DNA of 25,418 nt, taken from the IMG/VR virus record IMGVR_UViG_3300021964_010074, positions 1-25,418 of that record; one strand, 5' to 3'. Below are positions 3,687-17,480 of this stretch, one piece after another. Below the pieces are notes generated by a model. That model was not told the origin of the DNA and did not search any database. It saw nothing but the letters and a program-made list of their open reading frames with translations. This DNA is from a virus. Within the stretch, counting starts at the first letter, position 1; each line of letters begins with the position of its first letter. The position numbers and the translations under genes are program-made.

Positions 3687-3694
3687 TATAAATA
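3687..3694 (+). promoter_or_regulatory. T4-type late promoter box before gp18
   Basis: Exact TATAAATA, preceded by a run of T, in the 86-bp gap between genes 17 and 18 and about 60 bp before the gp18 start. In T4 this octamer is the only promoter element required by the gp55-containing RNA polymerase. The box is common by chance in AT-rich DNA, so its position in the gap upstream of a structural gene is the main support. Confidence 0.75.
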
Positions 3695-11860: not shown

Positions 11861-13144
11861 ATGAGAAACGAAGAACTACTTAAAAAATGGAAGCCAGTCC
11901 TCGAGCATGATGCTCTTCCTGGTATTAGTGATCCGCACAGAGCAGCTGTTACTGCAACTGTTCTTGAAAACACAGAAAACGCCTTACGTGAAGGCAGCTC
12001 GTATTCTCCTCAGTCATTGACTGAAGCAGAAATCGGTCCTGTTAATCACACAGGTGAAGTACAAAACTACGATCCGGTGTTAATTTCACTTGTTCGTAGA
12101 GCAATGCCTAACTTGATTGCATATGATATTGCAGGTGTCCAGCCAATGACTGGTCCTACAGGCCTTATCTTTGCAATGCGTTCTAACTATGTTGACAGCA
12201 CAAACAACAGCATCAAAACAGAAGCTATGTTTGACGAAGCAGACACAGATTTCTCAGGTACTGGTGCACATGCTGGTACAACTGGATCTGGTGCAACTGC
12301 AAACACTGGTACAGGTATGGCAACATCAACTGCTGAGCAGTTGGGTTCGGACAACGGAAACGCTTTCCAAGAAATGTCATTCCAAATCGACAAAGTATCT
12401 GTTGAAGCGAAGTCAAGAGCGCTGAAAGCAGAATACACAACTGAACTTGCACAAGACTTGAAAGCTATTCATGGTCTTGACGCAGAAACAGAGTTAGCAA
12501 ACATGCTATCTGCTGAACTGCTTGCAGAAATCAACCGTGAAGTTGTTCGTACTGTTTATAACTCTGCCGTACAGGGTTCTACAGGTACAGCATCGCAAGG
12601 TACATTCAACTTGGATGTTGATGCAAACGGTCGTTGGTCGGTTGAGAAGTTCAAGGGTCTGATGTTCCAGATCGAAAGAGAAGCAAATGCGATTGCAAAA
12701 GCAACACGTAGAGGGAAGGGTAACGTAATCCTTTGCTCGTCAGACGTTGCATCTGCATTGCAAATGGCTGGTGTGTTAGATTACACTCCTGCTCTTAACT
12801 CTAATAACCTTAACCCAGATGACACAGGCAACACATTCGTTGGTGTCCTTAACGGTCGCTTCCGTGTGTACATCGATCCATATGCTGGTTCGAACTACAT
12901 GGTCATTGGTTACAAAGGTTCTAACGCCTTTGACGCTGGTCTGTTCTATTGCCCATACGTACCTCTCCAGATGGTCCGTGCTGTTGGTGAAAACAGCTTC
13001 CAGTCTAAGCTCGGCTTTAAGACTCGTTACGGCATGGTTGCAAATCCATTCGCTCGTGGCAAGTTAACAGCTGCTGCAACAGGCGCAATCGCTGATGGCA
13101 CAAACGTCTACTACAGACGTACAATCGTCAGCAACCTTCTTTAA
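11861..13144 (+). CDS. gp23: Major capsid protein precursor (gp23-like)
   Basis: 427 residues, shorter than T4 gp23 (521). It forms the hexamers of the head shell (HK97 fold). The N-terminus ELLKKWKPVLEHDALP matches the T4 precursor leader. LTE followed by AEIGP at residues 53-60 is in the same place as the T4 cleavage site, which also leaves a mature protein starting AEIG, so cleavage after Glu55 is predicted. Conserved body motifs are LVRRAMPNLIAYDIAGVQPM, EAKSRALKAEYTTELAQDLK, ELLAEINREVVRTVYNSA, GNVILCSSDVASAL, FRVYIDPYAGSNYMVIGYKG and FKTRYGMVANPFA. A short Gly/Thr/Ala-rich loop at about 131-153 replaces the longer insertion of T4. Codon choice is shifted toward C-ending codons compared with neighbours, as expected for the most abundant product. 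A terminator follows. Confidence 0.98.
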   Translation: MRNEELLKKWKPVLEHDALPGISDPHRAAVTATVLENTENALREGSSYSPQSLTEAEIGPVNHTGEVQNYDPVLISLVRRAMPNLIAYDIAGVQPMTGPTGLIFAMRSNYVDSTNNSIKTEAMFDEADTDFSGTGAHAGTTGSGATANTGTGMATSTAEQLGSDNGNAFQEMSFQIDKVSVEAKSRALKAEYTTELAQDLKAIHGLDAETELANMLSAELLAEINREVVRTVYNSAVQGSTGTASQGTFNLDVDANGRWSVEKFKGLMFQIEREANAIAKATRRGKGNVILCSSDVASALQMAGVLDYTPALNSNNLNPDDTGNTFVGVLNGRFRVYIDPYAGSNYMVIGYKGSNAFDAGLFYCPYVPLQMVRAVGENSFQSKLGFKTRYGMVANPFARGKLTAAATGAIADGTNVYYRRTIVSNLL

Positions 13145-13176: not shown

Positions 13177-13203
13177 AAGGGGGCTTTCGAGCCCCCTTTT
13201 TTT
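13177..13203 (+). terminator. Rho-independent terminator after gp23
   Basis: A perfect 7-bp stem, GGGGGCT (13179-13185) and AGCCCCC (13190-13196), closes a TTCG loop. Flanking AA and TT extend it to 9 bp, and seven T residues follow (13197-13203). UUCG is an unusually stable tetraloop. It lies 32 bases after the gp23 stop. A smaller CTGG/CCAG hairpin (13155-13167) lies between. Confidence 0.95.
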
Positions 13204-13208
13204 GTGCA

Positions 13209-13216
13209 TATAAATA
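13209..13216 (+). promoter_or_regulatory. T4-type late promoter box after the gp23 terminator
   Basis: Exact TATAAATA starting six bases after the terminator T-run and 28 bases before the next gene. It would restart late transcription for the tail-tube-like gene. Confidence 0.75.
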
Positions 13217-13243
13217 CTATTATAAAACATATTGAGGTATTCA

Positions 13244-14805: not shown

Positions 14806-14965
14806 CTTAAAAATTAAAATATATCAAGATTCAGAATTTGAATTTTTGCTAGATGAAAATCAAAAGCCTATGGTATTTAATACTGCCGAAGAAGCTACAC
14901 AGGAAGGTAAAGAAATAGATTTACCCTTTCAAGTTGTTGAACATGATAGAAAAAATTCAGATTGA
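14795..14965 (+). CDS. Small hypothetical protein overlapping uvsW start
   Basis: 56 residues (begins MTYNLKIKIYQDSEFEFLLD). It overlaps the end of the phosphoribosyltransferase gene by 11 bases and the uvsW start by 23 bases, and has AAGGTAGG ten bases upstream of its ATG. The composition is ordinary for this genome and without it a 137-base gap would remain. No family recognised. It may serve to couple translation into uvsW, which lacks an obvious ribosome site. Confidence 0.6.
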   Translation: MTYNLKIKIYQDSEFEFLLDENQKPMVFNTAEEATQEGKEIDLPFQVVEHDRKNSD

Positions 14966-16400
14966 AAAGGTAAATGAACTTTATGTAAGAGTACATGCGG
15001 ATCCTTCTACTAAAATGGAATTATCCGAATATTTTACATTTGAGGTTCCTGGCGCAAAATTTATGCCTGCATATAAAAATAAAGTGTGGGATGGAAAGAT
15101 TCGCCTATTCAATGCAATGACGGGAAAAGTGTATGCAGGCCTTTCTCCATATATACATTCATTTGCTAAGTCACGCAAATATGATATAGAACTTATAAAC
15201 GATGTTTATGATGTACAAACCATAAATAATGATGCAGGGTATCAATTAGCAAAAGAATTTGATTCCGCATTTGAACCAAGAAATTACCAAAATGACGCTG
15301 TAGTACACGCACTTACCTACAATAGATCACTATTGTTATCACCTACAGCGTCCGGTAAGTCATTTATTATCTATCTTTTAACTAGATTCCATTTACAAGA
15401 AAACAGAAAAACATTAATAATTGTCCCAACAACTTCTCTAGTTGACCAAATGAGTTCTGATTTTCTTGAATACAATAAAAATAGACCTCTTAACATTCAT
15501 AAGATTCGTGGAGGTGTTGATAAAAATACAGATGCAGATATTGTTATAAGTACCTGGCAATCAATCTATAAATTAGACAAATATTGGTTTGATAAGTTTG
15601 ACGTTATTATAGGCGATGAGGCACATTTATTTAAAGCAAAATCTTTAACAAAGATAATGGAGAAAACTCCAAATGCTAAATACAGATATGGGTTTACGGG
15701 TACTTTAGATGGTACCGATACACATAAATTAGTCTTAGAAGGATTATTTGGAAAAGTATATGAAGTCACCAAGACGGCGACACTTATCGAAGAGAAGACG
15801 CTTGCGGAGTTCAATATCAAGGCAATTGTTTTGGGTTACTCGCAAGAAACAAGAAAAACAAACAAAGGACTCGATTACCAATCAGAAATAGATTGGATTG
15901 TGACAAATCCTGCAAGAAATAAATTTATTAAAAATCTTGCACATTCATTGCCGGGCAATACGTTAATATTGTTTCAATTTGTTGAAAAGCATGGTAAGGT
16001 CTTACATCCTTTGCTTGACTCAGAAAATCATACTATTCATTTTGTGCATGGTGGAGTTTCAGCTGACGATAGAGAGGAAATTAGACATTCAGTTGAACAG
16101 TCCCACAACAACATAATTCTTGCCTCATATGGCACATTTTCAACAGGTATAAATATTAAGAGACTAGATAATATTATATTTGCATCACCATCTAAATCAA
16201 AAATCCGTAACCTTCAGTCTATCGGTCGTGTATTGAGAAAGGGAAACGGGAAAACACAAGCAACACTATATGATGTAGTAGATGATTTACAATGGAAATC
16301 ACAACAGAATTTTGCTGTCAAACATTTTATGGAAAGAGTAGATATCTATACTGAAGAAGGATTTGACTTCAAAATTTATAACGTAGATATAAAGGAATAG
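14943..16400 (+). CDS. uvsW: UvsW-like superfamily 2 DNA helicase
   Basis: 485 residues from ATG 14943; in-frame TTG codons at 14934 and 14937 could be alternatives. UvsW unwinds branched DNA, migrates Holliday junctions and removes origin R-loops in T4, switching replication to the recombination-dependent mode. Motifs in order: an N-terminal domain ending YKNKVWDGKIRLF (about 44-56), YQNDAV, Walker A SPTASGKS (133-140), IIVPTTSLVDQM (159-170), DEAH (225-228), FTGTLDG, and in the second RecA domain LASYGTFSTGINIKRL and QSIGRVLRKGNGKTQA. The order and the last two motifs match T4 UvsW closely. There is no clear ribosome site; it probably relies on coupling with the overlapping small gene. Confidence 0.95.
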   Translation: MIEKIQIEKVNELYVRVHADPSTKMELSEYFTFEVPGAKFMPAYKNKVWDGKIRLFNAMTGKVYAGLSPYIHSFAKSRKYDIELINDVYDVQTINNDAGYQLAKEFDSAFEPRNYQNDAVVHALTYNRSLLLSPTASGKSFIIYLLTRFHLQENRKTLIIVPTTSLVDQMSSDFLEYNKNRPLNIHKIRGGVDKNTDADIVISTWQSIYKLDKYWFDKFDVIIGDEAHLFKAKSLTKIMEKTPNAKYRYGFTGTLDGTDTHKLVLEGLFGKVYEVTKTATLIEEKTLAEFNIKAIVLGYSQETRKTNKGLDYQSEIDWIVTNPARNKFIKNLAHSLPGNTLILFQFVEKHGKVLHPLLDSENHTIHFVHGGVSADDREEIRHSVEQSHNNIILASYGTFSTGINIKRLDNIIFASPSKSKIRNLQSIGRVLRKGNGKTQATLYDVVDDLQWKSQQNFAVKHFMERVDIYTEEGFDFKIYNVDIKE

Positions 16401-16404
16401 TCCT

Positions 16405-16785
16405 ATGGATTACGTAAATTTTAAATTAAGAACTGGTGAAGATATTGTTGCAGTAAAGACATACGAAACAGATGATTTTATTATTATTCAGAATCCTATA
16501 GAAATAACTGTAGATCCCAGATTCGGTTATTTCGCAAAATCATGGATGATGTTGTCGGATGAAAATGAAATGAAATTGCATAAATGTGATGCTCATTGGG
16601 TCACTAAACCTAGTGAAAAAGCAATACGCCACTATAATGAGTTTTGTAATGAAATTAAAAATTCACCACACGAAGAAGAGAGTGATGACAACGGCATCGA
16701 ATGGGATACGGTTGAGGAGATGAACAACGATATTGAAGATATGTTTGCATCGATGATAGATTCAAAATCATCAACAAAACATTAA
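16405..16785 (+). CDS. Small beta-rich hypothetical protein, possibly Sm-like
   Basis: 126 residues. The N-terminal 60 residues read as short beta strands: YVNFKLRTGEDIVAVK, then DDFIIIQNPIEITVDP, with a 'L.tGe.i.g.v..t.d.i.i.NP' pattern that resembles Sm-like barrel proteins found in many marine T4-like phages. The C-terminal 45 residues are very acidic and probably flexible. AAAGGA lies eight bases before the start and the gene follows uvsW by four bases. Role unknown; RNA binding would be an inference from the fold guess only. The segment after its stop carries the two opposed promoters described below. Confidence 0.65.
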   Translation: MDYVNFKLRTGEDIVAVKTYETDDFIIIQNPIEITVDPRFGYFAKSWMMLSDENEMKLHKCDAHWVTKPSEKAIRHYNEFCNEIKNSPHEEESDDNGIEWDTVEEMNNDIEDMFASMIDSKSSTKH

Positions 16786-16813
16786 TTAAGTATTTTCCTT
16801 AAGCGCTAACGCT

Positions 16814-16842
16814 ATTATATCGTCAACTCTAGCCTTTGTCAA
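16814..16842 (-). promoter_or_regulatory. Perfect consensus sigma70 promoter on the minus strand
   Basis: Read on the minus strand, TTGACA (16842-16837), exactly 17 bp, then TATAAT (16819-16814): a full consensus match at both boxes with optimal spacing. Transcription would start near 16807 and run leftward, antisense to the small beta-rich gene and uvsW. An AGCG-loop-CGCT hairpin (16802-16813) would lie at or near the 5' end. No minus-strand gene is visible downstream. Confidence 0.6.
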
Positions 16843-16863
16843 CCAGTTTTTTCAGTTGACAAA
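16835..16863. repeat. Inverted repeat spanning both -35 boxes
   Basis: TTTGTCAAC (16835-16843) and GTTGACAAA (16855-16863) are perfect 9-bp inverted arms with an 11-base spacer. Each arm contains a TTGACA box, one for the minus-strand and one for the plus-strand promoter. The symmetry could simply come from back-to-back promoters or could be an operator. Confidence 0.8.
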
Positions 16864-16884
16864 AACAATTTTTAATGTTATATT
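16856..16884 (+). promoter_or_regulatory. Sigma70-type promoter before gene 55
   Basis: Exact TTGACA (16856-16861), 17 bp, TATATT (16879-16884, 5 of 6). Predicted start is near 16891, about 20 bases before the gene 55 start codon. It lets the host polymerase make the late sigma factor. Confidence 0.75.
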
Positions 16885-16910: not shown

Positions 16911-17480
16911 ATGCCACCTAAATCAAGAAATTACGTAAACAACCCAGAATTTTTGCAAGCATTAGTCAACTACAAAAATTTATGTAGTGAGGCTGATGAA
17001 GCGGGAGATGACCACCCTCCCATTCCTAATTACATAGGTCAATGTGTTTTTCAAATTGCTACACGTCTAGCCTCTAAACCTAACTTTTCTGGATACTCTT
17101 ATAAAGATGAAATGATATCAGATGGACTAGAAAATGCTATTCAAGCATTAGGTAACTTTGATCCAGAGAAATCTTCAAACCCATTTGCTTATTTTACACA
17201 AATAATTTGGTATGCTTTTTTACGCAGGATTGATAAAGAGAAAAAGCAATTATACATTAGACATAAAGTTATTGAAAATTCTGTTATCAATGGAACTGCG
17301 GTTGAAAAAGATGATAGAACAAGCGAAGGTGAACCTAATTACATTGACTTAAATAATGAGTATATGAACGATTTTGTGAAAACGTATGAAAATAAACTTG
17401 CTGAAAAGAAGGCAAAGGAAAATGAAAAGAAGGTCGGTCTTGAAAAATTTATGGACGAAGAAGATACAAAAAGCGAGTAA
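16911..17480 (+). CDS. gp55: Late transcription sigma factor (gp55-like)
   Basis: 189 residues, near the 185 of T4 gp55. gp55 is a reduced sigma factor that directs host RNA polymerase to TATAAATA late promoters, working with the sliding clamp. The sigma region 2-like core is at about residues 41-118: YIGQCVFQIATRLASKPNFSG followed by EMISDGLENAIQALGNFDPEK, then NPFAYFTQIIWYAFLRRIDKEKKQ, which is the signature of the family. The C-terminus has a long charged helix and then GLEKFMDEED, which could be the hydrophobic/acidic clamp-binding tail (inference). A GAGG ribosome site precedes the start and a strong sigma70-type promoter lies upstream. The matching late boxes occur elsewhere in this window. 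Confidence 0.94.
   Translation: MPPKSRNYVNNPEFLQALVNYKNLCSEADEAGDDHPPIPNYIGQCVFQIATRLASKPNFSGYSYKDEMISDGLENAIQALGNFDPEKSSNPFAYFTQIIWYAFLRRIDKEKKQLYIRHKVIENSVINGTAVEKDDRTSEGEPNYIDLNNEYMNDFVKTYENKLAEKKAKENEKKVGLEKFMDEEDTKSE

Follow-up and report, generated by a model that had tools for sequence, protein, structure and literature searches.

Marine T4-like (Kyanoviridae-type) phages and some of their relatives have, where the late module ends downstream, a near-consensus sigma70 promoter that points backwards, against the genes that precede it. It is conserved in nearly all of the relatives analysed, lies at the border between the late and early modules, is followed in nearly all of the sequences scanned by neither an intrinsic terminator nor a conserved open-reading frame, and carries at its start site an inverted repeat whose two arms covary. 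The preferred reading, to which a probability of about 45% is assigned, is that this antisense promoter is active early in infection and holds down the end of the late module until the late sigma factor gp55 takes over.

The window, which is the whole stretch of 25,418 nucleotides analysed, belongs to a T4-like phage and contains the genes uvsY, a phosphoribosyltransferase-like gene, uvsW, a gene for a 126-residue protein, gp55, gp47 and gp46, in this order. Marine T4-like phages of Prochlorococcus, Synechococcus, Methylophilales and Pelagibacter have nearly this order too. About 98% of the coding in the window is on the plus strand. The original prediction of a perfect consensus sigma70 promoter on the minus strand is confirmed: TTGACA-17-TATAAT occupies positions 16842-16814, agrees with the consensus at 12 of 12 positions and has a spacer within the 16–18 nt typical of sigma70 promoters. 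It is the single 12/12 match to TTGACA-N15..19-TATAAT when both strands of the window are scanned. Shuffled windows are expected to hold 0.12 perfect matches and at least one was present in 12 of 100 shuffles, so that a lone copy is weak evidence. The features of the region are collected in Table 1.

Table 1. Features at the late/early border, in window coordinates
Feature	Position	Strand	Basis or remark
UvsW helicase, next gene along the path of the antisense RNA	14934-16400	plus	PHROG DNA helicase, E 1.8e-108; synteny with annotated uvsW
Sm/LSm-like protein, phrog_471 (database label "methylamine utilization"), final gene of the late module	16405-16785	plus	PHROGs, E 2.9e-9
Late sigma factor gp55, with which the early module begins	16911-17480	plus	phrog_234, E 9.2e-61
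-35 box TTGACA of the antisense promoter	16842-16837	minus	sequence match; 17-nt spacer to the -10 box
-10 box TATAAT of the antisense promoter	16819-16814	minus	sequence match
Start-site inverted repeat AGCG-TTAG-CGCT	16813-16802 (-6 to +6)	minus	flush with the -10 box, predicted +1 (A16807) at its centre
Predicted antisense transcript across the Sm-like gene, probably onward into uvsW	16405-16807	minus	inferred from the promoter
gp55 promoter TTGACA-17-TATATT	16856-16884 (-35 16856-16861, -10 16879-16884)	plus	sequence; conserved in relatives
9-bp inverted repeat, arms TTTGTCAAC / GTTGACAAA	16835-16843 / 16855-16863	both	formed by the -35 boxes of the two promoters
Late promoter TATAAATA before the gene at 13232	13209-13216	plus	motif match

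It is the conservation of the promoter in relatives that raises the observation above chance. From 400 IMG/VR loci with gp55, 277 non-redundant regions upstream of this gene were obtained, and a minus-strand promoter is present in 180 of them at a score of at least 11/12 and in 251 at a score of at least 10/12. The shuffle background for these regions is ~1% and 14%, respectively, and a control stretch farther upstream gave a score of at least 11 in 3 of 267. With the stop codon of the Sm-like gene as the anchor in place of gp55 (270 non-redundant regions), the promoter is found at 10/12 or better in 260 (96%) and at 11 or better in 193, as compared to 17 and 1 of 266 for a control within the Sm-like gene. 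The distance from this stop codon to the predicted start is 0–40 nt in 253 of the 260, and the spacer is 16 or 17 nt long among the relatives, with a few of 18 nt. In the 251 non-redundant relatives, which were chosen by total score and not by position, the first five positions of the -35 box (TTGAC) are nearly invariant, while in the -10 box positions 1, 2 and 6 (T, A and T) are at least 99% conserved and positions 3 and 5 are variable. The variation of the -10 box appears to be confined to sites which sigma70 tolerates, as would be expected of a sigma70 -10 element, and the positions that sigma70 requires are under selection. The test put forward earlier, that the boxes might be lost in relatives which keep the plus-strand promoter, had the opposite outcome, with both promoters retained; the existence of a strong antisense promoter under selection is supported by this conservation.

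In six long sequences, with 89–100% of the coding on one strand, this is the sole high-scoring antisense promoter that recurs at the same place, and a weight matrix ranks it first among all promoters of the contig in five and fourth in the sixth. The promoter is also present, with the same repeat design, in Stenotrophomonas phage DLP_6, in Sinorhizobium phage phiM7 and in relatives of phiM7. Vibrio phage CZ01, where the gene order differs, does not have the minus-strand element, and in one locus (L253) almost nothing separates gp55 from the Sm-like gene and neither promoter seems to be present. Other antisense promoters occur in two contigs: one (L035) has TTGACA-18-TATAAT followed by TGAC-CAT-GTCA on the minus strand ~15.1 kb upstream of gp55, within the late module, and another (L076) has a 12/12 promoter on the minus strand at about position 31022, 52 kb upstream of gp55.

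The place of the promoter relative to the two modules is seen from the distribution of promoter motifs. The late motif TATAAATA has seven matches in the window, all on the plus strand and six of them upstream of gp55, with 2.8 expected on both strands; besides the site in Table 1, those at 3687, 10828 and 11820 each precede a late-module gene. Within 16 kb of gp55 in the six sequences, this motif occurs on the gene strand 27 times upstream and 12 times downstream, whereas sigma70 promoters with a score of at least 11 on the same strand number 2 upstream and 33 downstream. The minus-strand promoter, therefore, lies where the late module ends and points back into it. Extra genes stand before gp55 in some loci (an 81-residue or a 201-residue product, or a larger block, in four loci), and the minus-strand element remains behind the Sm-like gene, which indicates that it is part of the late module and not of gp55. 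Altogether eight loci have insertions between the antisense promoter and gp55, encoding an 81-residue probable membrane protein, a protein of ~200 residues or, in L422, a multi-gene block, and the late/early border resembles a hot spot for insertions.

The gp55 promoter points away from the antisense promoter, and the two were proposed to form one control unit of gp55. This does not hold, since inserted genes separate them: the minus-strand promoter stays behind the upstream gene, while the plus-strand promoter usually accompanies gp55 and is mostly found directly before it, although in L422 it precedes the inserted block. The 9-bp inverted repeat, which is made of the two facing -35 boxes, is present in the window as described but is not a conserved unit, because the distance between the boxes in relatives varies from overlapping up to 68 nt. 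Its role as an operator was rejected on the same grounds.

The start-site repeat follows the -10 box directly in relatives as well, with arms of 4–6 bp and a loop of 3–8 nt, and the predicted start sits in the loop (TGT or TTA). Of 251 regions, 41% have perfect arms of at least 4 bp that begin at offset 0 and 22% have them at offset 1, while most other offsets account for a few per cent, with offsets -6 and -5 also raised. The arms themselves are diverse (AACC/GGTT, AACTCT/AGAGTT, AACGG/CCGTT, GGACT/AGTCC, CCCT/AGGG, AGCG/CGCT and CCTG/CAGG) and covary: a stem is possible in 65 of 177 distinct sequences, as compared to 27.6 +/- 3.5 when the 3' parts are exchanged at random within each lineage. 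The antisense promoter has the repeat in 5 of 7 cases and other strong promoters have it in 5 of 116, which makes it specific to the former. The whole promoter with its repeat is tandemly duplicated in several lineages (six loci), and the two copies of one of these (L043) have arms that differ yet are self-consistent, AGCG/CGCT and AGAG/CTCT.

The repeat had been taken for a hairpin at the 5' end of the RNA. Because it straddles +1, half of it would not be transcribed and the hairpin cannot arise in the RNA; this candidate was rejected. A terminator hairpin on either strand was also considered and rejected, as scans were negative in almost all loci. An intrinsic terminator has a G+C-rich stem that leads straight into a T run, but after the 4–6 bp repeat the plus strand reads ATTATA or AGTGTA, and the conserved TA---T marks the -10 box rather than a T run. 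Where a stem is intact apart from one non-Watson-Crick pair, T.G outnumbers C.A by 17 to 2 in the minus sense, which favours the non-template strand as the one that pairs, although a single lineage contributes most of these cases. The repeat of the window, when folded as single-stranded DNA, has -3.5 kcal/mol, ordinary for its composition. One guess is that the repeat acts through the non-template strand to adjust promoter opening or promoter escape. A bolder proposal, which is rather unlikely, is that it represents a new promoter element, in which a hairpin of non-template DNA formed during initiation or in a persistent R-loop would, where the late and early modules of marine T4-like phages meet, set the output of a single antisense promoter or open an origin of replication.

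The predicted product is an RNA antisense to the small β-rich gene, now assigned as Sm-like, and directed towards uvsW, and this part of the original prediction is supported, with no intrinsic terminator in its path; in the first 1200 nt of the minus strand one is absent in 207 of 209 relatives. The arrangement is that of a cis-antisense RNA, with a promoter directed against an annotated gene just behind its stop codon and a transcript that appears non-coding. No conserved minus-strand open-reading frame was found: the longest frames do not exceed those of a control stretch and have no relatives across lineages, and a small protein encoded on this strand was rejected for these reasons. In phiM7 a 50-residue minus-strand CDS, gp36, is annotated just behind the minus-strand promoter (1120-1272 of locus L436); it has a good ribosome-binding site and no Pfam match. 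A test for synonymous constraint under the antisense RNA is limited by the small number of codons in the Sm-like gene that are conserved or alignable among relatives.

We infer the activity, timing and role of the antisense promoter from its sequence and position. Early in infection, the host RNA polymerase with sigma70 would fire the promoter and produce a non-coding RNA against the Sm-like gene and uvsW, and perhaps deeper into the late genes. Leaky expression of late genes would be lowered by collision of polymerases and by pairing of the antisense RNA with the sense RNA, while the facing promoter would drive gp55 and the replication genes outward. Once gp55 has replaced sigma70, the antisense promoter would fall silent and late transcription would pass through. 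UvsW, if made early, would unwind R-loop replication origins. In T4, a late promoter drives the synthesis of UvsW, which takes apart the R-loops of origins (PMC3016281), so early UvsW is likely to be harmful and an antisense promoter of the host type, active early, would suit. The cyanophages do not have AsiA and MotA of T4 (PMC2984593) and the proposed timing thus rests on analogy. The missing conserved open-reading frame and terminator would be expected, because the act of antisense transcription may be what matters. The model leaves the covariation of the start-site repeat unexplained.

An unlikely alternative to early repression of the late module is that the promoter acts as an insulator or road-block, where polymerase loading at the minus-strand promoter would mainly halt late read-through into gp55 and the early module and the antisense RNA is a by-product. 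In 250 of 256 loci there is no plus-strand intrinsic terminator between the stop codon of the Sm-like gene and gp55, so something may be needed there; in line with such a block are also the location of the promoter at the end of the late module, its top score in most of the sequences checked, and the two tandem promoters in some phages. On the other hand, a near-consensus promoter in this orientation would not be needed, as a terminator is simpler and good ones exist elsewhere. The window itself has a strong hairpin resembling an intrinsic terminator, AAGGGGGCTTTCGAGCCCCCTT, at 13177-13198, after the gene at 11861-13144. Moreover, the late transcripts of T4 traverse its early regions without harm.

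It is improbable that the minus-strand transcript serves to form an R-loop that primes replication, as in oriF and oriG of T4, with the repeat folding in the displaced non-template strand and keeping the loop open. The oriE, oriF and oriG of T4 lie near the points where transcription switches strands, and oriF and oriG consist of a promoter and an A+T-rich unwinding element (PMC3016281). The repeat starts flush with the -10 box, where the open strand starts, uvsW adjoins, and the wobble pairs point to pairing in the non-template sense, with one lineage supplying most of them. Against this, the GC skew has its extremum at gp55 in none of the six sequences, and although a promoter is present, as in an R-loop origin, A+T just downstream is 70%, only slightly above the 65–67% of the coding region that follows. 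The GC skew of these six sequences reveals no shift of strand composition at gp55; oriA and oriC of T4 are likewise without such a shift (PMC3016281).

The neighbouring gene bears on a third alternative. The AlphaFold model of the 126-residue protein has a mean pLDDT of 84.6 and matches PDB 3by7 with a TM score of 0.86 by target length, and the family profile finds the same entry at 1e-12, while a PDB search with the protein of P-SSM4 alone gave no match. Pfam Sm_like matches the P-SSM4 relative at 8e-44, and the score of the window's own protein is under the gathering cut-off. By its model, the gene at 16405-16785 is thus predicted to encode an Sm/LSm-fold protein related to 3by7, and its product, encoded beside the antisense promoter, is a candidate for a phage RNA-binding protein. 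Proteins of this fold often serve small RNAs, and the promoter might produce a discrete trans-acting small RNA, perhaps bound by the adjoining LSm/Hfq-like protein; the antisense RNA CfrI, of ~225 nt, is known in cyanophage S-PM2 (PMC2984593). This reading, which the original prediction had also raised, is quite improbable: nothing indicates a small RNA with defined ends, because there is no intrinsic terminator within 1200 nt, no conserved open-reading frame and no Rfam match, so that a known RNA family was rejected too, and sequence conservation is slight beyond about +20. Finally, chance resemblance or inconsequential weak antisense noise is practically eliminated, even with perfect matches in 12% of shuffled windows, by retention of the promoter at a fixed spacing in 96% of the 270 regions from very divergent phages of several host groups, where the flanks and the neighbouring protein have strongly diverged.

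Few viruses of the sea are more abundant than the marine T4-like phages, which time their late genes without AsiA and MotA. A backward promoter present in ~96% of relatives at the late/early border, and the best match to the consensus in most of the sequences checked, provides a concrete regulatory element, and the start-site repeat should be of interest to researchers of transcription initiation. To our knowledge, a covarying repeat at a start site has no precedent. An antisense promoter fixed across the group and combined with such a repeat is not described in the literature searched, whose scope lay outside the Syn9 transcriptome and the S-PM2 antisense-RNA papers; the passages retrieved from the P-HM2 RNA-seq paper contain nothing on this site.

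The arrangement resembles divergent promoters of bacteria in that two promoters point apart, but no element is shared by the two promoters in the window, their distance ranges from overlap to tens of nucleotides, and they can be separated by inserted genes. The PeSL elements of T4-type phages, described as mobile regulatory cassettes, are likewise short intergenic units with a sigma70-type promoter and a stem-loop. Their stem-loop is reportedly a terminator and their early promoter is said to run in the same direction, whereas the repeat described here spans the start of a promoter that points backwards, and it keeps to a single locus. Like oriF and oriG of T4, the element places a promoter close to recombination genes, at a border of transcription, and may have an open non-template strand, but those origins have MotA-type promoters and an A+T-rich unwinding element. 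In this case the promoter is a full -35/-10 sigma70 promoter, the skew does not change and an unwinding element is not evident.

The antisense RNA is of a known kind, as such RNAs are found in a cyanophage and in T4. In T4, the anti-late strand is transcribed into “anti-late” RNA before the late genes turn on, similarly to what is proposed here. Antisense transcription of T4 gene 32 was reported as well (Belin et al. 1987, cited in PMC2988021). The early and late genes of T4 are on opposite strands, so its anti-late RNA can come from early read-through; in the phages described here, with nearly all genes on a single strand, the antisense RNA would start from a near-consensus promoter of its own. 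Another parallel is CfrI of cyanophage S-PM2 (described in PMC2984593, after Millard et al. 2010), which is also a non-coding RNA opposite to genes in a marine T4-like phage and covers psbA together with a gene for a homing endonuclease. CfrI was shown by experiment in one phage, whereas the promoter described here is predicted, lies behind the Sm-like gene and is present group-wide.
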